Of a DNA stretch of 29,293 nucleotides, positions 5,326-23,098 are shown piece after piece. Every line of letters starts with the position of its first letter. Position 1 is the stretch's first letter. The stretch is from a virus. Made by a program: the position numbers and the translations under genes. The notes under the pieces are model-generated. The model saw nothing but the letters and a program-made list of their open reading frames with translations, was not told the DNA's origin and searched no databases. The stretch is taken from positions 1 through 29,293 of IMG/VR virus record IMGVR_UViG_3300020118_000099; one strand, given 5' to 3'.

Positions 5326-6831
5326 GTGTCACAAAAGCCTGAGACATTCTTTACCGCGACCCCGGCGCAAGCCAAGTTCGCGGATGCGGTGTTTAGTGGG
5401 GCGTATCGCTATCTGGCGTACGGCGGGGGGATTCGGTCCGGCAAGACGGCAACCTCGCTCATGCTCGTTCAATCGCTCTGCAAGGTGTTCCCGAAGTCGC
5501 GCTGGGCGATTGTCAGAAAGGATTTGCCAACGCTCCGGCGCAATGTTCTGCCGAGCTTTACCAAGTTCCGCGTCCCTGGCTTCACGGGGGAGGTCAACCA
5601 GTCGAGTTGGACCGCGGAGTGTACAAACGGCTCCCAGATCATCTTCTTTACGGAGAGCTTGTCGGAGGACCCTGAACTCAACCGCTGGCGTGGGTTGGAA
5701 GTGAACGGGTTCTTTTTGGAAGAAGCGAACGAATTGCAAGAGGTGAGCTTTCGGAAGGCGATTGAGCGAGCGGGAAGCTGGGTGGTGCCGAACGGAGGGA
5801 ATCAGCCGCCGCCCTTAGTGGTGGCGACGTTCAACCCCTCGGCAGGCTGGGTGAAGCGGACGTTCTACGATCCCTACATGGCGGGGACGCTGGAGAGCCC
5901 CTTCTATTACCAGCCCGCCACGATTGTAGATAACCCGCACCTTCCACAGGATTATGTGGAAAGCTTGAAGTCCTTGCCGGAACGGGATTACAAACGGTTC
6001 GTGGAAGGCGACTGGAGCTTCATTTCGGGCGCGTTCTTTGACGAGTTGCAGTGGGCGACGCACCGGACGGACAGGCTCGACGATCCCACGGCGACGACGG
6101 TTCATAGACGATGGGCGGCGCTCCCGGAGTGGTGGCGGTATTGGTGCTCGTACGACTGGGGCTATCGGCACCCCGCGGTCTTTCAGGCGTTTGCGATGAA
6201 CGGCGGCGGTCAGGTGTTCTTGCTTGATACGGTGAGGATGCACCGCTTAGACGACGAGGAGCAGGCGCGGACGGTCGCGGAGACAATGCCGCCCCTCGCC
6301 TTACAGCAGGGCGCGTTTGCGGGGCATGACGTCTTTGCGAAGCGGATGGCGCACACGCCAGGCCATGAGACGGTCGCGGATGTGTTCTGGCGCTACAAGA
6401 TTCGGTTAGCGAAGGCCAACATTGCGAGAGTCCAAGGCGCGGCAGCGATGCGACGGATGCTGACGCGGAAGCAGAAGGACGGGACGCTTGGCACGCCGCG
6501 GCTCTTGGTCTGCGACACGCCGGGCAATCGGTGGGCGTTTGAGCAGTGGATGGAGATGGTGCCAGACCCTTTGAACCCAGACGACGTTCAGAAGGTAGAC
6601 GCGAACGAGGACGGGGAGGGTGGCGACGACGCGGCAGACACGACGCGCTACGGGTTGGCGAGTCCGACGTGGCTGCCGATCGAACCCCACGGGGAACGCC
6701 CGATCGTGAAGCAGGGCGATCCTCCGAAGCAACCCGACTGGATTGATACGAACACGATCGACGGCGATGATGATCCCCGCGGCGCAGAAGTGCCGGGCGG
6801 TATGTCGAGCAGGCTTGGTCAAGGTTGGTAG
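5326..6831 (+). CDS. terL: terminase large subunit (packaging ATPase and nuclease)
   Basis: ATP-driven DNA packaging motor and headful or site nuclease, acting at the portal. Walker A GGGIRSGKT is at residues 33-41; the adenine-binding Gln-type segment ATPAQAKFAD lies before it. Walker B is VNGFFLEEANE (126-136) with the catalytic Glu at 132/133. The coupling motif VVATFNPS is at 165-172. The RNase H-like nuclease domain starts near 240: SYDWGY supplies D277, AGHDVF supplies D335, and a third acidic cluster lies before TTRYGL (D434-D438). Length 501 aa is normal. Start is GTG at 5326 with a weak SD, 49 bases after TerS. The C-terminal 60 residues are acidic and Pro/Gly-rich. Confidence 0.95.
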   Translation: MSQKPETFFTATPAQAKFADAVFSGAYRYLAYGGGIRSGKTATSLMLVQSLCKVFPKSRWAIVRKDLPTLRRNVLPSFTKFRVPGFTGEVNQSSWTAECTNGSQIIFFTESLSEDPELNRWRGLEVNGFFLEEANELQEVSFRKAIERAGSWVVPNGGNQPPPLVVATFNPSAGWVKRTFYDPYMAGTLESPFYYQPATIVDNPHLPQDYVESLKSLPERDYKRFVEGDWSFISGAFFDELQWATHRTDRLDDPTATTVHRRWAALPEWWRYWCSYDWGYRHPAVFQAFAMNGGGQVFLLDTVRMHRLDDEEQARTVAETMPPLALQQGAFAGHDVFAKRMAHTPGHETVADVFWRYKIRLAKANIARVQGAAAMRRMLTRKQKDGTLGTPRLLVCDTPGNRWAFEQWMEMVPDPLNPDDVQKVDANEDGEGGDDAADTTRYGLASPTWLPIEPHGERPIVKQGDPPKQPDWIDTNTIDGDDDPRGAEVPGGMSSRLGQGW

Positions 6832-7144: not shown

Positions 7145-7549
7145 ATGACCACTACACAGGCGGTTGGGAACCGGACCCGCGTCGTGTCGAGTGCCGACGA
7201 TGGGAAGTTTCTGTTGCTCGCCGAACCCAATTCGGTGGGCGGCATTCAATGGTCGGGCACGTGGACGATTGAGTTCTCGCCGAGCGACGATTTCGACGGG
7301 ACGCTGGTCGTGATGGGCCGCGCTCCTGGTCGCGCCGCCGCGCAAAATCCCCCGGCCTTTGTCCCGATGACGTACCAAGCGGATTTCTTGAATGGCCTCA
7401 CGCCCCTCGATCCGACGCAGCGTCAGAACGCGGTCATTACGGACGCCTCGTCGATCACGGTCCCCGCGGTGGGGAAGTCAATTGCGCTCTTGGTGTCCTG
7501 TGCGCGGGGCACGATGACGGTCGAGACGAACGCGCAACAGCAGTCCTAA
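7145..7549 (+). CDS. putative virion beta-sandwich protein (134 aa)
   Basis: Compact beta-rich protein: VVSSADDGKFLLLAEP, SGTWTIEFSPSDDFDGTLVV, FVPMTYQAD, ITVPAVGKSIALLVSC. Small proteins with a WTIEFSPSDDFDG-type strand and an IxVPAxGxxIxLLV strand recur next to phage head and fibre genes, so a decoration or fibre-attachment role is plausible. No Cys pair, signal or membrane segment. GGAAG at 7134-7138 may serve as SD. A repeat-bearing spacer follows. Confidence 0.6.
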   Translation: MTTTQAVGNRTRVVSSADDGKFLLLAEPNSVGGIQWSGTWTIEFSPSDDFDGTLVVMGRAPGRAAAQNPPAFVPMTYQADFLNGLTPLDPTQRQNAVITDASSITVPAVGKSIALLVSCARGTMTVETNAQQQS

Positions 7550-7553
7550 GTTT

Positions 7554-7587
7554 GTAGGTCCGTAGGTCAAGACAATTCCGTAGGTCA
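7554..7587 (+). repeat. short direct repeats of (TC)CGTAGGTCA
   Basis: GTAGGTC occurs at 7554-7560, 7562-7568 and 7580-7586; the last two are within the longer identical unit TCCGTAGGTCA (7559-7569 and 7577-7587). A related TTCCGTAGGACA occurs at 15794-15805 in the spacer before the scaffold gene. Position in non-coding spacers upstream of virion genes suggests a protein-binding or promoter element. Confidence 0.5.
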
Positions 7588-7596
7588 CTCTCTAAG

Positions 7597-7611
7597 CCCC
7601 GCCAAGCGGGG
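7597..7611 (+). promoter_or_regulatory. hairpin abutting the RBS of the 7623 gene
   Basis: CCCCGC (7597-7602), loop CAA, GCGGGG (7606-7611): a perfect 6-bp GC stem. Its 3' arm runs into the SD (GGGGAGGA, to 7615) of the gene at 7623. No T tract follows, so it is more likely an RNA-stability or translation-control element than a terminator. Confidence 0.5.
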
Positions 7612-7622
7612 AGGATAGGCGT

Positions 7623-8306
7623 ATGTCCAGCACCCTCGTCTTAAACGGCACCATTGGCTTCCCGTCCAACCGTCAGTTCATGGCGGCTTCGGGCAAGATG
7701 TTTTCCGTCACGAACCCGACGCTAGGTACAGGCGTGGCCTACGCGCTCAAAACGGGCACCAGCGCGACGGCCAACGGCTTCTTCAACGTTCAGAACACGA
7801 ACCCGGTCGGCGGGGCGAACATCATCCTCGATCGTCTGCGGATGATTCAGACCGCGACGGCGGCGACGGGCAACCTGTCGTCCCGTTTTGAGTTCATCTC
7901 GGAGAATACGCTCGTCGCCCTCACGGGGAGCGTCGCCACCATCAGCCCGGTCAACTTGAACTGGGCCTACGGCAACACGACGGGTGCCGTGGTGCAGATG
8001 TTCTCCGCGGGTGCCGCGACGGTCCCCGCAGCGGTGGGGACGCGCCGGACGTTGGGCTGGGCCTCGCTCAATACCGGCCCCTCGATCTTGTGGGATTCGC
8101 TCTCACTGGAGTTTGGCTCGGATGGGTCGTCGGTGGGCACCGCGCAACTCACGGCAGCCAAGGCAACGGCAGCCGCGGACTATGTGGTGGCTGCGCCGCC
8201 GATCGTGATTGCCCCACAAAGCTCGGCTTGGTGCAATTTCTACATCGTCACGCAAGCGGCCAACATTCCGAGCTACGAGTACCAGTTGACCTTCGCCGAA
8301 ATCTAG
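7623..8306 (+). CDS. putative virion structural protein (227 aa)
   Basis: Strong SD (GGAGGA, 7610-7615) at the edge of a hairpin. Rich in Ala, Thr, Ser, Asn and Gly with alternating beta strands: FMAASGKMFSVTN, IILDRLRMIQTATAA, RFEFISENTLVAL, and near the end APQSSAWCNFYIVTQAANIP and YEYQLTFAEI. Composition and length fit a surface or decoration protein of the virion. The preceding spacer is unusually long for this genome and carries repeats and a hairpin, so this gene may be expressed at a separate level. No catalytic motif. Exact role unknown. Confidence 0.65.
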   Translation: MSSTLVLNGTIGFPSNRQFMAASGKMFSVTNPTLGTGVAYALKTGTSATANGFFNVQNTNPVGGANIILDRLRMIQTATAATGNLSSRFEFISENTLVALTGSVATISPVNLNWAYGNTTGAVVQMFSAGAATVPAAVGTRRTLGWASLNTGPSILWDSLSLEFGSDGSSVGTAQLTAAKATAAADYVVAAPPIVIAPQSSAWCNFYIVTQAANIPSYEYQLTFAEI

Positions 8307-8326
8307 CCCTCTGACTCTGAGGAGGG
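8307..8326 (+). promoter_or_regulatory. hairpin that can hide the SD of the 8334 gene
   Basis: CCCTC (8307-8311) pairs with GAGGG (8322-8326), which is the core of the AGGAGGG ribosome binding site 8 bases before the ATG at 8334. The stem starts immediately after the upstream TAG. It could couple translation of this gene to ribosomes finishing the previous one. Confidence 0.45.
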
Positions 8327-8333
8327 TCATCGT

Positions 8334-8873
8334 ATGACGGTCCAAACGAACGGGCTGTACGTCGGCCAAGCGGTGCCCGCCGTTGTCCGGGCGGTGGATG
8401 GCTTCGCGCACGACACGACGACGACGCAGTACACGGCGGGCGATGTGGTGTCCAACGGGGCGGTGACGAACCTGATGCGCTTTCCGCTCGCTCGCCAAGC
8501 GGGGGGCGCGGGGTACATCGTGAAAGGGCAGCTAGAGACCAACAGCAAAACGTTTCTCTCCCAGATGCGACTCTACCTGTTCATGGTCCCAGCAGGCGTA
8601 CCGGGCGTCGGGATTACGGTGGCGGCGGATAACGTCGCGGCCACGCTCGCCTACGCCGATCGCGGCCAGCGGGTGGGGTATTTGGATTTTCCGTTGCTGG
8701 CGACGGGCGCGGGGTCCGGTTCGACCACCAGCTACGCGCTCTGGACGGGCAATCTGGAATTTCACTGTAACCCGACCGACGATACGCTGTACGGGTATCT
8801 CGTGGACAACACGGGCTCGACCCCAGTGAGCGGGCAACTGTTCAGTGTAAAGTTGTCGGCGGACGTGTACTAG
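8334..8873 (+). CDS. putative virion beta-rich protein (179 aa)
   Basis: Very good SD (GGAGGG) inside a possible hairpin. The pattern YTAGDVVSNGAVTNLMRFPL, then GGAGYIVKGQLETNSKTF, MRLYLFMVPA, RVGYLDFPLLAT and a late DTLYGYLVDNT recalls a recurrent phage structural family, with a TAGDVVS start, a GGxGYI core and a YxDFP strand. Such proteins are usually annotated as virion or decoration proteins. The neighbours are other small virion candidates and a lectin-like protein. A 9-base duplication follows its stop. Confidence 0.65.
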   Translation: MTVQTNGLYVGQAVPAVVRAVDGFAHDTTTTQYTAGDVVSNGAVTNLMRFPLARQAGGAGYIVKGQLETNSKTFLSQMRLYLFMVPAGVPGVGITVAADNVAATLAYADRGQRVGYLDFPLLATGAGSGSTTSYALWTGNLEFHCNPTDDTLYGYLVDNTGSTPVSGQLFSVKLSADVY

Positions 8874-8885
8874 GTGGTGTACTAG
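8865..8885 (+). repeat. tandem duplication around the stop codon
   Basis: GTGTACTAG at 8865-8873 (the end of the previous gene with its stop) is repeated exactly at 8877-8885, period 12 with GTG between. The second copy lies just before the ATG at 8888 and looks like a recent small slip duplication. Confidence 0.6.
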
Positions 8886-8887
8886 CC

Positions 8888-10198
8888 ATGTCGTACGGCG
8901 ACGCCTGCTTTACCCTGCAACGGCGTTTACGTCGTACGGGCTCATCGGGCGGCGGGGGCTTAGGCTCGGCCTTGGTGTTCAGCTACCAAGCGGCGGTCCA
9001 AGGCGGGAGCTTTGGGAGCTTGGGCGGGACGTTCACCAGAGCCGATTCCACGACCTGTGCCACGTACATCGACAACAACGGCGTCATTCAGACAGTTCCG
9101 GCGAATATCCCCCGCATTCAGTACACGAACGGGCAGCCGGGGTTGTTGTTGGAGGGTACACGTCAAAACAAGAACTCAGATTCGAGTGACTACTCCACGG
9201 GATTATGGGCCAGAACAAATCTCACGTCTGTCCGTAATGTTACTGGACCAGCCGGGGTCGCGAATTCCGCGTGTACGATTACAGCGTCAGGAGCAGACGG
9301 TCACTTTAACCAAGTAACCGGCACCAATCTGATTGCTGGAACCAGTGCTGGGGTCACTATTCATGTAAAGGTGGGTACTGGGGCGAGCTTCGCATATGTT
9401 GGAGTAACCAACGATGCGGTACAGCATCGTGTGTGGATAAACCTGACGACGGGTGCGACGTCTTCAAAAGATCAAGCAGGCGATACCGCGATTGTGACAG
9501 TCCTCGGTGCGAATTGGTATCGCCTTGCACTGGCATTTCCAGCCACCAACACAATCAATCCGAATTATCAGGTGGGTATTTCTCGTACGACAGGAGCGAC
9601 GGATAGCCAGAATGGAGACACTGCGCTGGTCTTTGGAGCGCAGATTGAACAGGTTGTCTCTTTTCCGTCGAGTTATATCCCTGTGGTTGGAGGTCCTTCT
9701 ATTACACGGGCGCAAGACGCGCTCAAGTTTCCATTGCCGCTCGGATTTACTCCACAAAGCTGCACCGCATACATCGCGGGGTTTGAACAGGATCATAGTA
9801 CGGCAGATTCGAATGGGTTGTATTACATAGTTGGTTCTACAGCGAACTCCGGAAACCGCTTGTTGGACTACAGCTCACAGGCAGGCGCCGCAGGTGGCGC
9901 CGCACGTGCACAGCATACAGCCACACCAAACACGGCTGCTTCAGGGACATGTAATCAGAATGACTTCATCGAAGTCGTGGGACAGTTTCTCAATGATGGC
10001 TCGTGTATCTCCATCCAATGCATCAATAACGGTACCCCAACGAGCGGCGCCGTATCAGCGGCAGCACCCTACGAAGCGGCGTTCTCTTCCCAATTCATCT
10101 CCCTCGGCACGAACGGAACGGGGAACGGAAATTTTGTCCTGACGGCGTTCAAGCTCGCAACCGGCGTACACACGTTAGCCGAGATGCGTGCCGCATGA
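8888..10198 (+). CDS. lectin-like virion protein, probable receptor-binding or fibre component (436 aa)
   Basis: Residues 48-94 match a common phage virion segment: TFTRADSTTCATYIDNNGVI, then PRIQYTNGQPGLLLEGTRQN. Next comes a beta-sandwich domain (about 105-277) ending in GAQIEQ (250-255), SSYIP (261-265) and TRAQD (273-277), typical of LamG or carbohydrate-binding-like jelly rolls in tail and head fibres. A second beta-rich domain fills 278-436. A short basic, Gly-rich N-terminus (QRRLRRTGSSGGGG) may anchor it. From about 9176 to 10080 the DNA is clearly less GC-rich than its neighbours, suggesting an exchanged binding module. Host-surface sugar binding is inferred. Confidence 0.7.
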   Translation: MSYGDACFTLQRRLRRTGSSGGGGLGSALVFSYQAAVQGGSFGSLGGTFTRADSTTCATYIDNNGVIQTVPANIPRIQYTNGQPGLLLEGTRQNKNSDSSDYSTGLWARTNLTSVRNVTGPAGVANSACTITASGADGHFNQVTGTNLIAGTSAGVTIHVKVGTGASFAYVGVTNDAVQHRVWINLTTGATSSKDQAGDTAIVTVLGANWYRLALAFPATNTINPNYQVGISRTTGATDSQNGDTALVFGAQIEQVVSFPSSYIPVVGGPSITRAQDALKFPLPLGFTPQSCTAYIAGFEQDHSTADSNGLYYIVGSTANSGNRLLDYSSQAGAAGGAARAQHTATPNTAASGTCNQNDFIEVVGQFLNDGSCISIQCINNGTPTSGAVSAAAPYEAAFSSQFISLGTNGTGNGNFVLTAFKLATGVHTLAEMRAA

Positions 10199-10530
10199 TT
10201 ATCGCTGTCTCCGCGCTCGGCGCATACCTCCTCTTCGTCCGTTGGCTCATCTTCTGGCGGGGCGACTTTCGGACGGTCTATGTCGGCTGGATTGCGATGC
10301 TTCTCCGGTGGCGCGGAATGGAAGCGATTACCCTCGGTCCTACGTGCTGTCTGGCTCAGCGCGGTTTCGTCCTGAGTCCTGACGGCATCATTCACGAACG
10401 GACGCATCTCGCCCAGCAGCGGGCGCATTGGTGGTTCTTCTTTCCGCGCTACATCGTCTTGGCGCTGGTGCTTGGCTACCGCAACGAACCCGACGAAGTG
10501 GCTGCCCGAAAGGCGGCTGGAGAACTCTAG
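10195..10530 (+). CDS. small membrane protein with HExxH zincin motif (111 aa)
   Basis: The start overlaps the lectin-like gene by ATGA. HERTH at 67-71 is a perfect HExxH zinc-binding and catalytic motif, embedded in SPDGIIHERTHLAQQRAHWW, and an acidic residue (E98 or E101 in NEPDEVAARKA) about 30 residues on could be the third ligand. This resembles small HExxH...NPxExEA proteins found in bacteria and phages. Hydrophobic stretches at 1-20 and 81-94 suggest membrane association on both sides of the motif. It could be a peptidase acting at the cell envelope, or an inactive fold. No family is assigned with certainty. Confidence 0.65.
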   Translation: MIIAVSALGAYLLFVRWLIFWRGDFRTVYVGWIAMLLRWRGMEAITLGPTCCLAQRGFVLSPDGIIHERTHLAQQRAHWWFFFPRYIVLALVLGYRNEPDEVAARKAAGEL

Positions 10531-10719
10531 ATGTGGTACTTGAAGAACGGCCAAGGCCAATTCCTCCGCATGACGTCAGCGCGGCACGACTTGGCGCAAA
10601 CGCCCGAGGGGCGAGCACAGATTGTCCGCGAGTTGAGCGCCGCGAAACCGGACGACTACACGTGGACCCAAGACACGACGAACGCCATCCCGGTTGATCC
10701 TTCACCTGACCAGCAATGA
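10531..10719 (+). CDS. small hypothetical protein (62 aa)
   Basis: The ATG follows directly after the previous TAG and the stop overlaps the next ATG (ATGA at 10716-10719). The sequence starts with a beta-like MWYLKNGQGQFLRMTSARHD, continues with a helix (PEGRAQIVRELSAAK) and ends in a Pro/Asp/Gln tail. No family recognised. Placement between the HExxH gene and a fibre-like gene suggests a chaperone or linker for one of them, but that is a guess. Confidence 0.5.
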   Translation: MWYLKNGQGQFLRMTSARHDLAQTPEGRAQIVRELSAAKPDDYTWTQDTTNAIPVDPSPDQQ

Positions 10720-11786
10720 CGCAACAGACTGACTTTACGACGCTGCCCAATCCGGGCGCGGTTGAGCCGTACCAAATCCGGGCGAGTAACGCCACGGTCG
10801 GCGCGGTGTTGGCCGTGGGCGCGGATGGCGTCCCCGTGTGGGATGCGACGAGCGCCTTCCCGGTGGGGGCGATCACGCCCGGAACGGCGCGGCAACTCAT
10901 TCAGACGAACGCGGGCGCGACGGCGGCAGAGTGGACGAGCGGCATCAGCGTCACGGACCTCACGTTCTCGACGCTCTTGGCTTCGGTCACGGCCTTGGCC
11001 ACGCCCAGCGCCTTGGCGGCGACGGCGGCCAACCATTTCGCGTCCACCGTCTCGGGTGCGGTCGTGATGGGCTTTGGCACCACGAACGATGTCACGCTCA
11101 AGAACCGCGCTGGCACCAATGTCGTCGGGGTCACGGCCAATACGCTCGACGTCACAATGGCGGGGGCGCTGGCGATTACAGGAGCCCTGTCGGGCGTCAC
11201 CACGCTAGCGACCTCCGGCGCGATCAACTCGCAGACGATCAGCGCCGCGGCCAACTTTACTGGGACGGTTGCGATTGCGACGAGCGTCACCGTCGGCGCG
11301 CCCGGCGCGATTGCGTTCAACATGGGCGGCGCGGCTGCTGCGGTGACCTCCTGTTCGTCACTCGTCAAAGTGGTCACGGGTATTGCCGATAACACGGCGA
11401 CGACGGTGATGACGATTACGGTCCCGAACGCGGCGCATGGCGCGGTGGTGCAGGTAACCATTGTCGGTCAAGCGGGCGCGGGCGGCGCGATCGGCGCATG
11501 GGAAGATGTGACGAGCGTGAGTTATAACATCTCCGTGGCACGGACAGCGGGTGTGGCGATGGGCGCTACCGTCTCAACTGCGTTCGGATCCGCCGCCGCG
11601 GTGGTCGTTGGCGCAGGGACAATGACTTGCGTTGGGGCGATCACGCTGAACGGCGAGGGCGTCGGCGCAACCAATACGGCCAGCTTCAAAGCCACGATTG
11701 ACCAAAGCTCGACCGCCACGAACCATCGTTGTCTTGTGTACGCGACGATTGTGAATAGCAACGCCACGGGCATCACGATTTCCTGA
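10716..11786 (+). CDS. fibre-like Ala/Thr/Val-rich virion protein (356 aa)
   Basis: Repetitive low-complexity strands dominate: SALAATAANHFASTVSG, VVMGFGTTNDVTLKNRAGTN, LAITGALSGVTTLATSGAIN, AAANFTGTVAIATSVTVG. The alternating small and beta-branched residues, and phrases such as LKNRAG and ITGALSGVTT, are typical of phage tail or head fibre shafts. The C-terminal 150 residues (from about 205) form a more varied beta domain (VVQVTIVGQAGAGG, TSFKATIDQ-like strands, CLVYATIVNSN), possibly the tip. No collagen-like repeat or chaperone-cleavage motif was seen. Likely a trimeric fibre or surface protein. Confidence 0.65.
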   Translation: MTQQTDFTTLPNPGAVEPYQIRASNATVGAVLAVGADGVPVWDATSAFPVGAITPGTARQLIQTNAGATAAEWTSGISVTDLTFSTLLASVTALATPSALAATAANHFASTVSGAVVMGFGTTNDVTLKNRAGTNVVGVTANTLDVTMAGALAITGALSGVTTLATSGAINSQTISAAANFTGTVAIATSVTVGAPGAIAFNMGGAAAAVTSCSSLVKVVTGIADNTATTVMTITVPNAAHGAVVQVTIVGQAGAGGAIGAWEDVTSVSYNISVARTAGVAMGATVSTAFGSAAAVVVGAGTMTCVGAITLNGEGVGATNTASFKATIDQSSTATNHRCLVYATIVNSNATGITIS

Positions 11787-11792
11787 GCCTTT

Positions 11793-11996
11793 ATGAGCGA
11801 GATTCGGAAAGGGATTACGCCGAAACAGGCGCACGCGATTCGGACGATGGGCGCTGGCATCGAAGCGGCGACCAAAGCCCGCGACGCATATGTCGCTGGC
11901 GTGCTTGGCGCGTTCAGCGATGTGCCACCGTCGGTCTCTTGGGTTATTGGGGAGGACGACACCTTGACCCTCTCCACGCCTGAGCCTGCTGAGTAG
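11793..11996 (+). CDS. small hypothetical protein (67 aa)
   Basis: ATG at 11793, 6 bases after the fibre-like gene. N-terminal helix (TPKQAHAIRTMGAGIEAATK, ARDAYVAGVLGAF), then a short beta hairpin (SVSWVIGEDDTLTLS) and an acidic tail. Short proteins of this form after fibre genes can be assembly helpers, but there is no direct evidence here. The stop TAG overlaps the GTG of the next gene (TAGTG at 11994-11998). Confidence 0.5.
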   Translation: MSEIRKGITPKQAHAIRTMGAGIEAATKARDAYVAGVLGAFSDVPPSVSWVIGEDDTLTLSTPEPAE

Positions 11997-12370
11997 TGGC
12001 GATGCTCAGGATGGACGACCCGGCGATTCAGGGGGATTTGAAGCGGGTCTACGCTACGCATGAAGCGCAGCACGCCACGCCGCACGGGAAGTTGGCGTTC
12101 AAGAAAGCGTTTCACTCGATCCACAAAGCGGGCCACGGTGTTCACGCCGCCACTCGCATTGGTCACTTAGCCGCGCATCGCGCCGAGGGTACGTTGCGAA
12201 AGAGAGCGAAAGTCAAACACAGTGCCGCCCATCCGGGCTTCAAGGCGTTGGTCAAGCAAGGGGTTCCGCCCGGTGCACTCGCCAACGCCGCGCGAAATGC
12301 GAGCGCCAAGGCGGTGGCCGCGAATCCCCGACTGAAGCGCGTCGCAGGCTTCAAGAAGAAGGGCGCGTAG
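11996..12370 (+). CDS. highly basic His-rich protein (124 aa)
   Basis: GTG start overlapping the previous stop. By hand count it has about 24 Lys plus Arg and 11 His against only 5 Asp plus Glu, with almost no aromatic residues. The middle is full of HxxxH-like spacings (FHSIHKAGHGVHAATRIGHL), and the C-terminus ends in a Lys-rich FKKKGA. This could be a DNA-condensing virion protein, a metal-binding peptide, or a cationic membrane-active protein. No fold or family recognised. The charge makes it clearly different from all neighbours. Confidence 0.55.
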   Translation: MAMLRMDDPAIQGDLKRVYATHEAQHATPHGKLAFKKAFHSIHKAGHGVHAATRIGHLAAHRAEGTLRKRAKVKHSAAHPGFKALVKQGVPPGALANAARNASAKAVAANPRLKRVAGFKKKGA

Positions 12371-12372
12371 GG

Positions 12373-13173
12373 ATGCACGTCAACCGGAAGAAACTGGCCG
12401 CGCAGCAAGCCGCGATTCAATCCCGTGTGCCGCCTGGCATGATCGAAGCCGTCGCCAACGTCGGCGTAGCGATTGCCCACGGCGGGGACTCGATTCTTAT
12501 GCGGACGATGATGGCGGTGGTGAACATGATGGTCGAGAGCGCGAAAAACCGCATCGCGGTCAACATCATCCCCGAGCAAGGCTGCTACGTCCAGCGCAAT
12601 CGCTGGGCCGCGGCGAAGAAAGCCGTCGAGCACAACATGACGCATGTGCTCTACGTCGATACCGATATGGGCTTCCGGCCCGATGCGCTCCTCCGACTCC
12701 TCGCGCACAAAAAGCCGATTGTAGGCGCGAACTATTGGACGCGTTCCTTCCCCATGTACTCGACCATCAAAATGCCGGGCACCGACGGCCCGACGCAGGA
12801 AACGCGGTCGATGAACGTGGAGGAGATTCCCACGGAGTTGTTCGAGTGCTTCTCGGTCGGCACTGGCTTGATGCTGGTCGATGTACGCGTATTCAAGGCG
12901 TTGCCGCAGCCGTGGTTCCAAGTCACGCACCAGCCGGACGGAAGTTTACAGTACGGCGAAGATGTGTGGTTCTGTAAGCACGCTCGCGACAACGGCTTTA
13001 GCGTCTGGTGCGACCCGAACATTGAGGTCGAACACTTGGGCATCTTCGAGTACAAGGACCACGAGCGCTGGGACGCAGACGGCATCCGCAATCCGGCCAA
13101 CGAAGGGCGCATCGTCGCAGAGGCGACGGACCACACGGAGAACGCTGAGACACGAGCCGAGGTTTCGGTTTGA
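12373..13173 (+). CDS. GT-A type glycosyltransferase
   Basis: Transfers a sugar from a nucleotide donor. Residues 30-130 show a GT-A core: ILMRTMMAVVNMMVE, a basic helix before VLYVDTDMGF with the DTD metal motif at 96-98, and FRPDALLRLLAHKKPIVGAN. A Gly-rich acceptor region follows (SVGTGLMLVDVRVFKAL, 161-177), then GEDVWFCKHARDNGF with an acidic GED at 195-197 and a late VEHLG with H221, the usual metal-binding His. Such GT-A enzymes occur in phages, where they may decorate host lipopolysaccharide, virion proteins or DNA; the acceptor here is unknown. It sits between virion genes, so virion or receptor modification is a fair guess. The C-terminal 30 residues are acidic. Confidence 0.85.
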   Translation: MHVNRKKLAAQQAAIQSRVPPGMIEAVANVGVAIAHGGDSILMRTMMAVVNMMVESAKNRIAVNIIPEQGCYVQRNRWAAAKKAVEHNMTHVLYVDTDMGFRPDALLRLLAHKKPIVGANYWTRSFPMYSTIKMPGTDGPTQETRSMNVEEIPTELFECFSVGTGLMLVDVRVFKALPQPWFQVTHQPDGSLQYGEDVWFCKHARDNGFSVWCDPNIEVEHLGIFEYKDHERWDADGIRNPANEGRIVAEATDHTENAETRAEVSV

Positions 13174-13499
13174 TGCTCGCGCTGGCGCTTTCGTTCGCGG
13201 TCGTTGGCTTGGCCTTCTGCTACACCGTCCTCCGCATTGCGGGGATGCTGGGCGGAAAGCTCGCGGAGTCGGTAGACCGCTATTTGAAAGTGTTGGAGCA
13301 GAAACACGCCCCGCCCAAAGGGACGAGCGAAGCGGAGCCGATCCCCGATGATATCGTGGCCCACGTGCTTTCGACGCGCCATGCGAAATGGGCGCAAGAG
13401 CAAGAGTTTGCCTTTGCCCGCGAGAAGTACAACGAGTACGGCCAGTGGCCCCCCGTTCGCGTATTGATGGGCATTGGGAACGGCGAGGAGCCTGAGTGA
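13173..13499 (+). CDS. single-pass membrane protein (108 aa)
   Basis: ATG at 13173 overlaps the glycosyltransferase stop (TGATG); a TTG one codon earlier is less likely. The N-terminal 26 residues form a strong membrane helix (LALALSFAVVGLAFCYTVLR). Then comes a helical region (KLAESVDRYLKVLEQKHAPP), a linker, and a conserved-looking FAREKYNEYGQWPPVRVLMG near the end. It could be a membrane anchor, a spanin-like or lysis helper, or a portal accessory, since its stop overlaps the portal start (GTGA at 13496-13499). Function unknown. Confidence 0.6.
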   Translation: MLALALSFAVVGLAFCYTVLRIAGMLGGKLAESVDRYLKVLEQKHAPPKGTSEAEPIPDDIVAHVLSTRHAKWAQEQEFAFAREKYNEYGQWPPVRVLMGIGNGEEPE

Positions 13500-15793
13500 C
13501 CGTCCCCGGTATGGCGATGGTCCCGTATTCTGATCGCGCAGGCGGCATTTCGACGCAGGCGTTGGCGCTCGACGAGTCGGCGGACGAACAGGCGCAAGCC
13601 AAGAAGGAACGCGACGCGGCGCTCAATGCGCTCTACGGCACCGCCTTTCCGCTCATTAGTGAGAACGGCGACGCGGAGCGCGACGGGCCGTGGGTCGCGT
13701 GGGCCTCAGCCCTGTGGCAGAACCGCGAAGCGTCCATGACGTATCCGCTCTGGATCGCGCAGCGAAACCGCGAGATGTGGGCGGGCAGACAGTGGATCGA
13801 CTCGACCGCGGTAGGCCGAAAGTGGATCACGCCCCGAGCGCCGGGGGATGCGGTACGGTTTGTCGTGAACGTGACGAAAGCCGCGTTGGATTTGCGGGCG
13901 CAGATTGTCTCGGAGCAGCGCCCCGGCTTTAGCGTCGAACCGACGAACCGCGACGCGCAGAGTAAGAAGAAAGCGGAAGCAAAGCAGTTGGCGTTAGAGT
14001 ATGCGTGGAAAGAGATGGGCATGGAGCAGATCATGGGCGAGCTGGCCCACTGGTCCTCGACGGATGGCGTGGCGTTCACCGAGACGTACTGGGACGACAA
14101 CGCTGGGCCGTGGCACGAAATGCTCACGAAGCAGAAGATTCGGCTGGGCGATGTGCGAAAGCGCGTCTTGCGGATGGACGAAGTGCGCGTCTCGCCCAAC
14201 GCGACCGCAACGGTCGCCCCGAATTGGATTTGCGTTCATCGCATTGTGCCAACGAACGAAGCCGTAGCGCGCTGGGGGGAATCGGTCGCGGACCAAGCGA
14301 CGAAAGACGGTGCGCTCAAAGGGATGGGGACCCAAGGACTGGGCAACTTTACCGATGCGGGCCGTCAAGATGATCGTTTCTTAGACACGCCAACGCTCGA
14401 TGAGTTTGCCGTCTATTGCGCGCAGACGGACCACTTGCCGAACGGGCTAGAGTTGCACGCGGTGGGGCAGAAGGTGACGTACCTTGGCGAACTCCTCTTT
14501 GGCCGTATCCCCATTTCGCGCTACACGGACGGCTCGAAGGACCCGGCGTACTACCCCATGCCGGATATGAACAACTGGGTCGATGACCAAATGGGCATCA
14601 ACTCGGTCGTGTCGAAGATCATTGAAACGGTACGTCGAACAGCAGGCGGGGCGTTCCTCGCTCGTCCGCAAGCGATGACGACAGAGACCCGGATGTTGGG
14701 CGCGCTCTCCTTGATTGAAGTGCAAGGGACGGGGGCGCTGGACGATGTGGTCAAGTACCTCCCGCCCTCCGCGGTGGGCTCTGACGCGATGGCCTTGCTG
14801 CAATTCTTGATGGCGCAGTTTGAGCAGAAGTCGGGCTGGAACGATGCGACCCGCGGGAGTTTCAAGAGCGATACGTCAGGCCGCGCCATTCTCGCTATCC
14901 GTGAGCAAGTGGAGCGCATCTTCGCCCCGCTCGTGGGCGCGTTTGCCCGTGGGGCGGTTGAGGACGCGAAGAACACGCTGGCCGCGATGATGTGGGGCTA
15001 CGAGTTGCCGCGAGAGATTGCGATTACGGGGAAGAGCCGCATTGACTTGGCGCAACAGATTAGCGCCGAAGATTTGGATGGCGTCTCGGACGTGACGATT
15101 GATCCTGAATCGTTGATGCCGATGCCTAAGAGCTTGAAACTCTCGCTGATGCAGCAGGATTTAGAGAAAGGACTGATCCCGCCAGACCAGTACTTGCGCC
15201 TCCGTCCCTTTGCGTGGATGCGCGATGTCGGGAACGGGGATGAAGATGACCGAGCGCGAGCGTTTCGGATTGCGGACGCGATTCGGAAAGGGATGCCGGA
15301 AGCGCAACTCAACGAGCAGTACCCGGCCCTCCCGATGGATAACGCGGCGGTGCATATGGACATTCTGCGCCGCGAAATCTTGCTCGATGATTGGCTGCCA
15401 AAAGAAGTGAAAGCGGTGGCGTTTGATCGCTACATGGTCTACCAGCAGATGCAGCAACAGCAAGTCGCCCCGCAACCAGGGACACCGGAAGCGAACTACC
15501 AAAACGCGCTCGACAAACTGCAACAGCAGGGCATCGCCGCGCTGAACACGGAAGCCTTGAAAGTGATTACGGCGCAGGACGGGTTAGCGCCACTCCCGAG
15601 TCCCGCCGCAAACAAGCCGCGAGCGATGACGGGGCCAGCGCCCAAGAAAGCACCGATGAAGAAAGGGTCGAGCTTAGACCCGATGCAAGCGCCGACGAGT
15701 ACGAGCCGTGGCCCGGTGGCCGCCGCGCCGCTCGTTGATCCGAGCGAAGAACAACACGCAGGCCAAGCGTTCGACGCCGCCAGCGCGATGTAG
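13496..15793 (+). CDS. portal protein (765 aa)
   Basis: Forms the dodecameric portal at one head vertex through which DNA enters and leaves, and recruits scaffold and terminase. GTG start overlaps the previous stop. Typical portal core: WIAQRNREMWAGRQW (86-100), VVNVTKAALDLRAQIVSEQR (123-142) with RPGFSVEP after it, a helical EAKQLALEYAWKEMG (161-175), then GVAFTETYWDD. The size (765 aa) and a C-terminal helical barrel-like stretch rich in Gln (QQMQQQQVAPQP) match long podovirus, P22-type portals. The tail end is basic, Ala/Pro-rich and flexible. Next come scaffold and capsid, the expected order. The assignment rests on these patterns and context. Confidence 0.85.
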   Translation: MTVPGMAMVPYSDRAGGISTQALALDESADEQAQAKKERDAALNALYGTAFPLISENGDAERDGPWVAWASALWQNREASMTYPLWIAQRNREMWAGRQWIDSTAVGRKWITPRAPGDAVRFVVNVTKAALDLRAQIVSEQRPGFSVEPTNRDAQSKKKAEAKQLALEYAWKEMGMEQIMGELAHWSSTDGVAFTETYWDDNAGPWHEMLTKQKIRLGDVRKRVLRMDEVRVSPNATATVAPNWICVHRIVPTNEAVARWGESVADQATKDGALKGMGTQGLGNFTDAGRQDDRFLDTPTLDEFAVYCAQTDHLPNGLELHAVGQKVTYLGELLFGRIPISRYTDGSKDPAYYPMPDMNNWVDDQMGINSVVSKIIETVRRTAGGAFLARPQAMTTETRMLGALSLIEVQGTGALDDVVKYLPPSAVGSDAMALLQFLMAQFEQKSGWNDATRGSFKSDTSGRAILAIREQVERIFAPLVGAFARGAVEDAKNTLAAMMWGYELPREIAITGKSRIDLAQQISAEDLDGVSDVTIDPESLMPMPKSLKLSLMQQDLEKGLIPPDQYLRLRPFAWMRDVGNGDEDDRARAFRIADAIRKGMPEAQLNEQYPALPMDNAAVHMDILRREILLDDWLPKEVKAVAFDRYMVYQQMQQQQVAPQPGTPEANYQNALDKLQQQGIAALNTEALKVITAQDGLAPLPSPAANKPRAMTGPAPKKAPMKKGSSLDPMQAPTSTSRGPVAAAPLVDPSEEQHAGQAFDAASAM

Positions 15794-17113: not shown

Positions 17114-18481
17114 ATGTCGATTTCCCTGTCTGATGCGGCCATTACCGGAATGTTGCTCCGCGTCTACAACGCGTTTGAGAACAACGTCTTTCCGGTCGTG
17201 ACGCCGCTCGCCGCCCAGATTGATCGGGCGACGCCAAAATCGAAGCACAAAATCCGGTGGGGCGGCGAAAATGCCTTCTTCCCGGTGACGATCGGCCAGC
17301 CCGCGGGCTTCTACTCGTCCTCAAACGGCGCACTGCCGCCGTCCAGCGCCGCATTGGAACGTCAGGCGCAGGAAACTGTGAAGCGCATCTACGTCCGCCG
17401 TCAGGTGGATGGGTTTGCCATCACGGGCACCGCATCCAAGGAGGCCGCGTTCAAGCCGCTCGCCACGAAGATCATTCGGGAAGCGACCATCGCGTCCAAG
17501 CTCGGTATGCAGCGAATGTTGCACTCCGACTCCCGCGGCATCATTGCGGTCGTCGTCACGACGGGCACCACCACGGCAGTCGTCTCCAGCCCCTACGGCA
17601 TCACGTCGGCGGGTCAGGGCGGCTTGACGATGGAGCAGTACCAGACGTACCAAATCCTGGACCCGAACAATTCGTACGCCGCTCGCACGGTGTCGAACGG
17701 TCCCGGCAACAACCGCATTACGCTGGCGAGCTACACGGAGTCAAGCGACAACGCCACGCTGTCCTTCACGGGCTCAGAGTCGGTCGCATCCATGACGATC
17801 GGTGACGTGTTCGTGCTGGCGACGTCGGCCTCGATCGCCTTCAACTCGACGGCGGGCGATGTGTCGAGCCAAGCGGGCGAAATCAACGGCTTGGTCAACA
17901 TCACGAAGCGCGGCGGTTCTTCGACGTACAACTCGCTCCACAACATCTCGTCGGCGACGGCGGGCAACGAGCGATGGGATTCTGTCCGCATGGTCGCGGG
18001 CACCGACACGCCGTCTTTGAACGCGACCGAGGACGACATCTACAAGCTGTCGGTCAAGATTCTGGGCCGTTCGGGCTACTCGCCGATGGAAAGCCCCTCG
18101 GACTGGCTCTTGCTCGGTACGCCGGGCTTGCAGCAGCAGTTGGTCCAGTCCGTGATCGGTCAGCGTGTGTTGGCCGATGAAGTGGAACTCAAAGCGGGCT
18201 ACAAGGGCATCCGCATTGCTGGCCTCCCCTTCATTGCGGACTACTGGTGCCCGGCAGGCACGCTCTACCTCCTCCACTTGCCGGACCTGTTCAAGATCAA
18301 CGCCAAGGATTTCGGCTACGTCGTGCTGAACGGCGCAGGCCCGTGGCGCTGGATCGCCGACTACGACGGATTTGAAACGTCGTGGGGAGCCTACATCAAC
18401 ATCGGCACCACGAATCGCGGAGCCCACGGCTCGATCACCGGCTACACGGATTCATTGCGCGCGACACATGTCGTTGGCTAG
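17114..18481 (+). CDS. major capsid protein (HK97-fold type)
   Basis: Main head shell protein. It directly follows the scaffold, and its length (455 aa) suits a podovirus capsid. The N-terminal helix (LLRVYNAFENNVFPVVTPLA) is followed by an extended E-loop-like segment rich in Gly, Ser and Pro (about 45-80: GGENAFFPVTIGQPAGFYSS). A long spine-like helix follows (KPLATKIIREATIASKLGMQ, about 116-135), and later beta strands with NISSATAGNERWDSV. Near the end lie DWLLLGTPGLQQQLVQSVIG (P-domain helix) and a final beta-rich segment (FETSWGAYINIGTTNR). SD GAGG is 8 bases upstream. Identification is by order, size and fold pattern, not by a unique motif. Confidence 0.85.
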   Translation: MSISLSDAAITGMLLRVYNAFENNVFPVVTPLAAQIDRATPKSKHKIRWGGENAFFPVTIGQPAGFYSSSNGALPPSSAALERQAQETVKRIYVRRQVDGFAITGTASKEAAFKPLATKIIREATIASKLGMQRMLHSDSRGIIAVVVTTGTTTAVVSSPYGITSAGQGGLTMEQYQTYQILDPNNSYAARTVSNGPGNNRITLASYTESSDNATLSFTGSESVASMTIGDVFVLATSASIAFNSTAGDVSSQAGEINGLVNITKRGGSSTYNSLHNISSATAGNERWDSVRMVAGTDTPSLNATEDDIYKLSVKILGRSGYSPMESPSDWLLLGTPGLQQQLVQSVIGQRVLADEVELKAGYKGIRIAGLPFIADYWCPAGTLYLLHLPDLFKINAKDFGYVVLNGAGPWRWIADYDGFETSWGAYINIGTTNRGAHGSITGYTDSLRATHVVG

Positions 18482-20310: not shown

Positions 20311-20336
20311 TGCGTTTAGTAGCGGTGCGATACTAA
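20310..20336 (+). other. 8-codon micro-ORF bridging two genes
   Basis: ATG at 20310 shares its A with the adaptor stop (TAATG), encodes MRLVAVRY, and its TAA (20334-20336) shares its last A with the ATG of the nozzle-like gene (TAATG). It may allow ribosomes to step across the gap by termination-reinitiation, since no SD is visible before 20336. Confidence 0.3.
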
Positions 20337-21928
20337 TGGGCAGCTTTAGCGGATTGTCGTCGTCCTTGCATCGTCCGAAAGGGCTTCGCCCCTCGGGTGG
20401 GCGGATGTTGATGACGGACGCGCAGGCCGCGTTTAGTGATGGATTGAATACCGCAGCGGACCCGTCACACGTTGGGCCGAACGAGTTTCGCCGGGCGGAA
20501 AATGCGCTCTTGACTTCGTTTGGCGCCGCGGTGAAACGGCGCGGGACGCAGCGGACACACGCGAGCGCCTTTGCCGCCGACATTCAGGGCGGCTTTGCGT
20601 GGCCGCGGTTGACGGGCAATCAGGAGTTGGTCGTGGCCGCGGGGGTGCTCTACACGGGCACCTACGGCATTCCGATGAGTTGGACGAGTCAGGGAGGGAC
20701 GCTCGATACCGCGGCGCGCATTGGGTTCGCCGCGTTTGTGCACGGCGCAACCCCTGTGACGTTCATCGCGGACGGTGGCTTACTCAACTACTGGGACGGC
20801 ACGACGCTGACGGAGAACGTGGCGAATACCCCGAATTGTACGGTGCTCGCGGTGCAGAACAATCGCTTGTGGGGGATCACGGGCGACTCGAATATCCTGA
20901 GTGCGTCGGCGCTGGGCGATGGTGCCACGCTTGGCATCAGTGCGAGTAACGGCGGTCAGTTTGCGATTGCGACGTATGAGGGACAGCATTTGGTTGGCCT
21001 CTTGCCGATTGGCGCGAGTTTGATTCTCCTCCAGAATCAGGGCGTCTCTCGCGTGACGGGCTGGACGGCGGACGACTTCAATGTGTTGAGTGGGACACGG
21101 GGCGTCTCGGCGGATGTCGGGACAGTCTGCGCCCAGAGTGCGATTGCGGTTCAGAACGAAGGATTTTTCCTCAGTGACCGTGGCTTCTACTCCGTTACGG
21201 AGTCGGGCGTCGCGCCGATCTCGATTCAGATTCGGGATATGCTGGCCGGATTGTCGCAAGCGGACTGGGATCAAATCTCGGTCGCGCATCACGCGGCGAT
21301 CTACGAAGTGCGCTGGTACATCCCTGGTCTTGGGGTGCTGTCGTTCAACTACCAGCTACGGAAATGGTCAGGGCCACACACGGGGATTTACACGAGCGCC
21401 CCGGTGGTCGATATGTGGGAGACGGTGGACGCGAGCAATAAGCCGATTGTCCTCTCCGCGCATAACGACCGCTTTGTGCGGCGCACCGAACGGCCCTCCT
21501 CGATTTGCTTGGATGATGTGCTGAGCACAGGCACAGGCGGGACAGCCTACACGCTCGTCATTAAGTGTCGCCGGATGTTCTGTAATGACGCGGTGACGGA
21601 GAAGGTCTACCGCTTTGCGTGGGTGACGTGCGATTTGCGGACGAGTGATCGGGCGGCGCTCAACGTGGAGACGGACTCGGACGCCGTGGTGCAACGCTTC
21701 CCGAACGATACGCCGTCCGGTGAGTGGGACGCGGAAGATGCGATCTGGGATAGTTTGAGCGTGGGCGGCGACCCGCCGTGGTACTGGGGCAGCGTAGCGT
21801 ATGACCGGAAGCGGCTCCCGCTTACGGGCCACGGGGAATGGGTGGACCTGACGATTCAAGATGACGGCCAAGCGGAGAGCATCTTCGCTCGCGTCGATTT
21901 ACGGGCGTTCAACCTGGGGGAACGATGA
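20336..21928 (+). CDS. putative tail nozzle or packaged-DNA stabilisation protein (530 aa)
   Basis: Likely closes the portal channel and forms the tail stub in a short-tailed phage. The pattern FSDGLNTAADPSHVGPNEFR and then RAENALLTSFGAAVKRRGTQ (residues about 33-72) is typical of the podovirus gp10/nozzle kind of beta-propeller proteins, which start with a GLNT...DP..I/V..NE...N segment and a KRRGT strand. Repeated WGITGDSN, LLILLQNQGVSRV, FFLSDRGFYSV and FNYQLRKWSG strands are propeller-like blades. Translation may start at 20336 (no SD) or at 20405. It precedes the fibre and collar genes. Confidence 0.7.
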   Translation: MGSFSGLSSSLHRPKGLRPSGGRMLMTDAQAAFSDGLNTAADPSHVGPNEFRRAENALLTSFGAAVKRRGTQRTHASAFAADIQGGFAWPRLTGNQELVVAAGVLYTGTYGIPMSWTSQGGTLDTAARIGFAAFVHGATPVTFIADGGLLNYWDGTTLTENVANTPNCTVLAVQNNRLWGITGDSNILSASALGDGATLGISASNGGQFAIATYEGQHLVGLLPIGASLILLQNQGVSRVTGWTADDFNVLSGTRGVSADVGTVCAQSAIAVQNEGFFLSDRGFYSVTESGVAPISIQIRDMLAGLSQADWDQISVAHHAAIYEVRWYIPGLGVLSFNYQLRKWSGPHTGIYTSAPVVDMWETVDASNKPIVLSAHNDRFVRRTERPSSICLDDVLSTGTGGTAYTLVIKCRRMFCNDAVTEKVYRFAWVTCDLRTSDRAALNVETDSDAVVQRFPNDTPSGEWDAEDAIWDSLSVGGDPPWYWGSVAYDRKRLPLTGHGEWVDLTIQDDGQAESIFARVDLRAFNLGER

Positions 21929-22256: not shown

Positions 22257-22649
22257 ATGGCCTCGACGCCGCAATTCACCGCCACGGTTCGCACCGAGGC
22301 CACCCCCGCCTTCAACACGGCCAACACGGGCCGCACGGGTTCCGGCACGATCCAGCAAGCCTTCATTGGCGGGACGAGCGGGAGCCGGGTGGAGCGTATC
22401 CGCATCAAGGCGCAGAGCACAACGACGACGGGCATCATCGTCATATGGACGTGGGACGGCTCAATCTACTCGATTTTCCAAGAGGTCGCCGTTACCGCCG
22501 CTACCCCCTCCTCAACCGTGACGGCCTTTGAGGCGACGGTGAATTGCGGGAACGTGAATCCGCTCTTTGTCCCATCCGGTCACGCGCTGGGCTTCTCGAC
22601 CACGAAAGCGGAAGCGTTCGTCGCCACGGTCGTGGGCGGAGACTTCTAG
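22257..22649 (+). CDS. small beta-rich virion protein (130 aa)
   Basis: All-beta, Thr/Ser/Gly-rich sequence: RVERIRIKAQSTTTTGIIVI, WTWDGSIYSIFQEVAVTAAT, and a C-terminal PSGHALGFSTTKAEAFVATV. Similar short proteins occur beside fibre and collar genes in phages. Near-gapless spacing with the preceding and next gene suggests a shared tail-fibre operon. No catalytic residue visible. Confidence 0.6.
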   Translation: MASTPQFTATVRTEATPAFNTANTGRTGSGTIQQAFIGGTSGSRVERIRIKAQSTTTTGIIVIWTWDGSIYSIFQEVAVTAATPSSTVTAFEATVNCGNVNPLFVPSGHALGFSTTKAEAFVATVVGGDF

Positions 22650-22651
22650 CG

Positions 22652-23098
22652 ATGGCGAACAACGGCTTGCTGGGGATTCCCGGCTCCGAACTGTTCGTCA
22701 TTCCCCCAGCGGAGAGCGGGGGGTTCTTCATTGCGATGTGGTCCGGTCCAACGACAGCGGTTCCGGCAGGCTGGCAACTCTGCGACGGTTCAGGTGGGAC
22801 ACCGGATTTGCGTGATCGGTTCGTGGTGGGCGCAGGCAGCACGTACACGCCCGGCGATACGGGCGGTGCAACCACCAATACGCCGAGCTTTACGGGCGAT
22901 CCGATGACTACGCACACGCACACGCTTTCAACCGGGGAAGTCGTCAATCGTTCGGTAGCTGGTTCGGACTTGCTCTGGTACAACACGGTTGACGCGGCTT
23001 CAGCGGGGACGCCAGTAGGCACCATTTCCGAAGTCCCCACGCTCCCCCCGTACTACGCCCTCTGCCTGATTGCTTATGTGGGCGGTGGTTCTGTTTGA
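22652..23098 (+). CDS. phage tail collar domain protein (148 aa)
   Basis: The tail collar (PF07484) signature is clear: PAGWQLCDGSGGTPDLRDRF followed by VVGAGSTY, and a late LPPYYALCLIAYV. A Thr/His cluster (TTHTHTLSTGE) between them is usual in this family. Such proteins form the tip of tail fibres or the collar that meets the host. The frame is open from 22544, but I start at the ATG at 22652 because the previous gene ends at 22649. It is short (148 aa) and has a single domain. Confidence 0.8.
   Translation: MANNGLLGIPGSELFVIPPAESGGFFIAMWSGPTTAVPAGWQLCDGSGGTPDLRDRFVVGAGSTYTPGDTGGATTNTPSFTGDPMTTHTHTLSTGEVVNRSVAGSDLLWYNTVDAASAGTPVGTISEVPTLPPYYALCLIAYVGGGSV

Follow-up and report, generated by a model that had tools for sequence, protein, structure and literature searches.

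A glycosyltransferase (GT) family, phrog_1574, was found to lie close to the major capsid gene across phage lineages with P22-like and HK97-like head modules, which are unrelated to each other. The GT encoded at positions 12373-13173 of the window (the whole 29,293-base stretch that was analysed, a virus fragment) represents a divergent member, of known fold class, within this large and unnamed capsid-linked family. The family-wide capsid link is of greater interest than the window GT itself, and the open-access literature searched held no report of the phrog_1574 family as capsid-linked. Based on family membership, invariant catalytic motifs, predicted fold, and gene order, all established here, we lean towards a function in which the enzyme attaches a single sugar to a virion head protein, likeliest the major capsid protein or a co-packed protein.

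A divergent member of the phrog_1574 family

The features of the window on which the argument draws are as follows.

5326-6831, + strand: terminase large subunit (phrog_2, 2.7e-35)
11793-11996: small ORF upstream of the GT
11996-12370, + strand: 124-aa basic protein, function unassigned by matches, 2 nt upstream of the GT
12373-13173, + strand: GT-A-type glycosyltransferase of the phrog_1574 family (266 aa, ATG start, TGA stop)
12658-12666, + strand: DTD motif, residues 96-98 (D96 and D98 invariant in 167/167)
12955-12963, + strand: GED motif, residues 195-197 (D197 aligned to Asp151 of STIV A197)
13033-13035, + strand: His221 (invariant in 167/167 relatives)
13173-13499, + strand: protein of about 108 aa with one predicted N-terminal membrane segment (maximum 19-residue hydropathy 2.30)
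13496-15793, + strand: P22-type portal protein (Pfam PF16510 (P22_portal), 2.3e-8; phrog_156, 8.5e-17)
17114-18481, + strand: major capsid protein, candidate acceptor (phrog_14242 major head protein, 1.6e-10)
20336-21928, + strand: P22 stabilisation/virion-structural-type protein (phrog_3287, 7.4e-8)

The initial annotation had described a GT-A enzyme with DTD at residues 96-98, GED at 195-197, and H221, all of which are read directly from the translation of 12373-13173. Residues 28-227 of this protein match positions 11-234 of the 240-position phrog_1574 profile (E=1.9e-24), a family labelled ‘unknown function’, and a weaker match was obtained to phrog_12406 (glycosyltransferase; 6e-5). The GT core extends over approximately residues 28-227, preceded by a 27-aa N-terminal extension, and the tail after residue 226 is disordered. 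None of D96, D98, D197, and H221 varies in the alignment of 167 relatives; at position 196 a single aligned row has Ser, the other 166 having Glu. From its sequence, the DTD motif is a putative metal/nucleotide-sugar site, and by analogy with GT-A enzymes His221 is probably a metal/diphosphate ligand. Annotated phage proteins sharing 28-35% identity with the window GT are labelled putative glycosyltransferase or hypothetical protein. Taken together, the phrog_1574 match, 27-33% identity to phage proteins, and invariant motif residues indicate a genuine gene, not an ORF arising by chance. Two other members of the family were noted in passing: one (MW202544.1 33778-34395; L010:318-935) is labelled ‘synthase catalytic subunit A2’, evidently in error, and another (L002:9875-11272; 466 aa) carries a fused C-terminal domain, is followed by a second GT-like ORF, and has as its top fold match in BFVD the GT region of a protein annotated as an FkbM methyltransferase.

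An AlphaFold2 model of the window GT, built from a 23-sequence alignment, predicts a GT-A domain (mean pLDDT 81, with much of the core above 90). Its fold neighbours (Foldseek, VIA-align) include the collagen galactosyltransferase COLGALT1, A197 of Sulfolobus turreted icosahedral virus (STIV), Mnn9, the LH3 GT domain, and GalNAc-transferases, together with many phage GT models; the best compact match was STIV A197 (Z 17.7, 164 residues, 2.7 A). Membership of the GT-A fold class is predicted from these matches and from a DxD motif with invariant Asp, and the combination of fold and GED alignment groups the protein with an STIV A197-like subfamily. By sequence, the family profile reaches both A197 (E=6.6e-4) and Mnn9 (5.6e-4); the window GT sequence alone gave no significant match to solved structures. 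Anp1 was the sole Pfam family returned for the window GT, at 15.2 bits and so below the gathering cut-off of 28.8; of 23 family members, 20 match the Anp1 profile (best E=1.6e-10; E up to 0.01), and some also match other GT2-type families. Of the fold matches STIV A197, Mnn9, COLGALT1, and the LH3 GT domain, several act on proteins. The LH3 GT-like domain, described as accessory and non-catalytic, is also among the top matches, which, with the location of the window GT among structural genes, could point to a catalytically dead protein serving as a structural or assembly factor; such a role is very improbable, given that the catalytic acidic residues and the catalytic His are virtually unvarying even among highly diverged sequences.

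Along the window, TerS (4722) and TerL (5326) are followed by an unmatched ORF block (7145-11786), two small ORFs, the GT, an ORF with one transmembrane (TM) segment (13173), the portal (13496), a gene that is scaffold-like by position only (15894), the capsid gene (17114), and the P22 stabilisation-type gene (20336). A profile derived from the last of these reaches the stabilisation proteins of P22-like relatives, the gene being common to both; no counterpart of the P22-like preGT or tail-tubular protein was detected in the window by hhalign. Searches by portal or terminase identified no direct relatives of the window virus in IMG/VR, and only weak matches in the phage collection. The GT had originally been placed between fibre-type genes and the portal. 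The portal does follow, separated from the GT by the ORF at 13173-13499, whose start overlaps the GT stop codon and whose product is a possible membrane partner of the enzyme. On the upstream side, however, the nearest ORFs are small, and the larger ones (7623, 8334, 8888, and 10716) have no convincing Pfam or PHROG match. From 11793 to the portal, neighbouring genes are no more than 2 nt apart or share up to 4 nt, tight packing which suggests that a single late transcript is likely; promoter and terminator scans were at or below chance. Further downstream, two same-strand ORFs (22257-22649 and 22544-23098) overlap by 106 nt, and the start of the tail-collar ORF is probably later.

Gene order across the family

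IMG/VR was scanned twice with GT alignments, yielding approximately 150 loci, with at least 535 relatives confirmed in the first scan. Neighbouring genes were labelled with profiles seeded from annotated genomes, and representative capsids of both head types were checked against PHROG. In 103 loci the GT was flanked by four or more genes upstream and one or more downstream; in 91 of these, a gene labelled as capsid lay no more than four genes away. Capsid proteins of a further subfamily were found one to three genes upstream of the GT at L002 (PHROG-checked), L153, L156, L157, and L166, giving a total of 96 loci, many of which are close relatives such that the counts are non-independent. When GTs were collapsed at 50% identity, the capsid link was seen in about 12 of 18 clusters, including one mislabelled by the missing subfamily. 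A reverse search, starting from P22-like capsid proteins, placed the GT just downstream in 68 of the 70 loci with enough sequence. The initial annotation had regarded a GT among virion genes as unusual; these frequencies (96/103 and 68/70) overturn that view, as in this family the GT normally adjoins the capsid gene.

Two arrangements predominate, a P22-like order of portal, small gene, scaffold, capsid, small gene, GT, and tail tubular protein, and an HK97-like order of portal, protease, capsid, GT, and connector. The GT tree mostly separates by head-module type, with the window GT positioned beside the P22-like L129 on a long branch. In the window, the GT lies four genes from the capsid gene and upstream of portal, scaffold, and capsid, at the very edge of the four-gene distance used in counting; it has moved to a position upstream of the portal, as opposed to downstream of the capsid gene in its relatives. 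Another lineage with the GT beside the portal is represented by L099, in the order terminase, portal, GT.

Exceptions to the capsid link were also observed. Cyanomyophage relatives encode the GT close to baseplate genes and away from the head cluster, and elsewhere it occurs near DNA polymerase (L143), near terminase (L144), or at other positions (L009 and three bacterial genome loci). Two P22-like loci, L228 and L238, show the order capsid, small gene, tail tubular protein and lack the GT, which indicates that the GT is not universally required; they provide natural gene-less comparisons. Capsid adjacency is no general property of phage GTs, since in Che8 50 kb separate gp110, a member of a different phage GT family, from the capsid gene. 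A prolyl-4-hydroxylase-type gene was found near a GT relative in cyanophage Sf-FS3 (L094, 8614-10441), recalling collagen hydroxylation and glycosylation, and may be a coincidence.

Candidate acceptors and alternative functions

We infer late co-expression, a head-protein acceptor, a single-sugar product, and a benefit to the particle: a soluble, metal-dependent GT-A enzyme would be produced together with the head genes and, in the host cytoplasm, would transfer one sugar from a host-made nucleotide-sugar onto a head protein before or during assembly, leaving a sugar-coated finished particle whose coat could alter stability, adsorption, or recognition. A soluble lone GT in a head placement, with neither a flippase nor a pyrimidine-hydroxymethylase detected in the window or related records, fits one-sugar transfer of this kind. 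Glycosylation of virion proteins, proposed from the outset, stands as the best-supported function of a GT located in the virion module; the nearby Ser/Thr-rich proteins then suggested as acceptors are less likely than a head protein, because the recurring partner of the GT is the major capsid gene. Several observations nevertheless weigh against a head-protein acceptor. Gene proximity reflects shared timing and says nothing of the acceptor, the window GT is upstream of the portal and does not adjoin the capsid gene, and among its relatives the cyanomyophage GTs lie near baseplate genes, a few others lie elsewhere, and two relatives lack the gene.

Modification of tail-fibre, adhesin, or other surface proteins of the particle, rather than of the head, would account for the cyanomyophage GTs near baseplate genes and for the position of the window GT at the end of a block (7145-11786) of mostly Ser/Thr-rich ORFs. 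In ORFs 7623, 8334, 8888, and 10716 these residues make up 17-24%, against a window mean of 14.9%. Ser/Thr richness is, however, common in beta-rich phage proteins and recurs beyond the capsid gene in ORFs 18609, 22257, and 23095, and was rejected as acceptor evidence for being non-specific. Given also that a fibre identity of these neighbours has no convincing Pfam or PHROG support, and that what recurs beside the GT from lineage to lineage is the capsid gene and not fibres, we regard a surface-protein acceptor as fairly unlikely. The window also encodes a 622-aa Pro/Thr/Ser-rich protein (23819-25687), which has no family match and contains a mucin-like stretch where S, T, or P account for 31 of 50 residues.

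The main alternative to virion glycosylation is that the enzyme acts late in infection on the sugars of the host surface, preventing superinfection or the re-adsorption of released particles. A head-module GT of Gratiaviridae was interpreted as modifying the host capsule (PMC8008677), many related GT-A enzymes make cell-surface polymers, and the overlapping one-TM protein could bring the window GT to the membrane. Conversely, the GT itself has no membrane segment (maximum hydropathy 1.43), and no GtrA flippase was detected in 16 records, comprising 15 related records and the window, whose genome is incomplete, with positive controls, whereas GtrAB serotype-conversion systems combine a GtrA flippase with a membrane-anchored GtrB. 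Host-surface modification would not, on its own, lead one to expect that the GT stays linked to the capsid gene in both head lineages, and we consider it quite unlikely.

Glycosylation of phage DNA bases, a form of hypermodification, was also considered, as some phage GTs act in this manner and several relatives encode a cytosine methyltransferase. In 16 records, again including the incomplete window genome and with positive controls, no thymidylate-synthase/hydroxymethylase-type enzyme (PF00303) of the kind expected for T4-type DNA glucosylation was found. A search for Tet/JBP oxygenases gave no match in 15 records including the fragmentary window, and control genomes were also silent. DNA-modifying GTs are usually grouped with nucleotide genes, and we consider a DNA acceptor highly improbable.

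Returning to transfer of a sugar to the head, at the level of the family the chances appear to us evenly balanced that phrog_1574 enzymes are dedicated to glycosylating the capsid, encoded beside the capsid gene in hundreds of uncultivated tailed phages of two unrelated head types. In that case aquatic and soil phages would commonly have sugar-coated capsids, which would be no peculiarity of mycobacteriophages or archaeal viruses. We found only a few tailed-phage systems for which virion glycosylation has been proven, and one recognisable capsid-locked enzyme family would allow sugar-coated phages to be predicted from sequence. It would also open the frequency of capsid glycosylation to direct testing in a cultured phage of this family, Microcystis phage Mel-JY34. 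Capsid sugar could further influence how environmental phages adsorb and are recognised, and how stable their particles are.

Comparison with known systems

Within the phrog_1574 family, MW202711 and MW202496 (‘putative glycosyltransferase’) and XAI96494 of Mel-JY34 share 28-35% identity with the window GT and a head-module location, but lie downstream of the capsid gene, immediately after it in Mel-JY34, whereas the window GT is upstream of the portal. Mycobacteriophages provide a functional precedent: the GTs that Che8 and Corndog encode glycosylate the virions of these phages (PMC12363180), and in Corndog a methyltransferase and three GTs, encoded between portal and protease, are found in infected cells and absent from virions (PMC4351075). 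Like the window GT, Corndog gp36-38 and Che8 gp108-110 include phage-encoded GTs, those of Corndog within the head gene block. These phages differ in possessing several GTs and a methyltransferase as opposed to one GT in the window, their enzymes belong to other GT families (for Che8, phrog_854, 1721, and 8858), and the Che8 genes, unlike the phrog_1574 family, lie far from head genes. Homology to the Che8 GTs or to the Dylan counterparts of the Corndog GTs was rejected, with no significant profile match by hhalign or hmmsearch; for Che8 gp110 and phrog_854, hhalign probability was approximately 0 and hmmsearch gave E=0.26 in a 7-sequence search. The precedent is thus functional only, demonstrating that phages glycosylate their virions and not that the phrog_1574 family does.

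In Cellulophaga phage phi18:1, the glycosyltransferase gp41 is located in the head module, between the portal and the protease/capsid genes (PMC11946311), but it is larger than the window GT, at 407 aa, and is not matched by the family profile. Anp1/Mnn9 (GT62) and COLGALT1 have the GT-A fold in common with the window GT, and are cellular enzymes with other acceptors. The closest precedent is STIV, in which the capsid protein is glycosylated and A197 is only putatively the responsible enzyme; loss of A197 is lethal, and the substitution D151E delays replication (PMC10551542). STIV is an archaeal virus with an unrelated capsid, both the donor and the acceptor of A197 are likewise only putative, and A197 is essential where some tailed relatives of the window GT lack the gene. 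In common with the window GT, A197 (PDB 2c0n) is a small, stand-alone viral GT-A enzyme, and its D151 aligns with the GED Asp of the phrog_1574 family.
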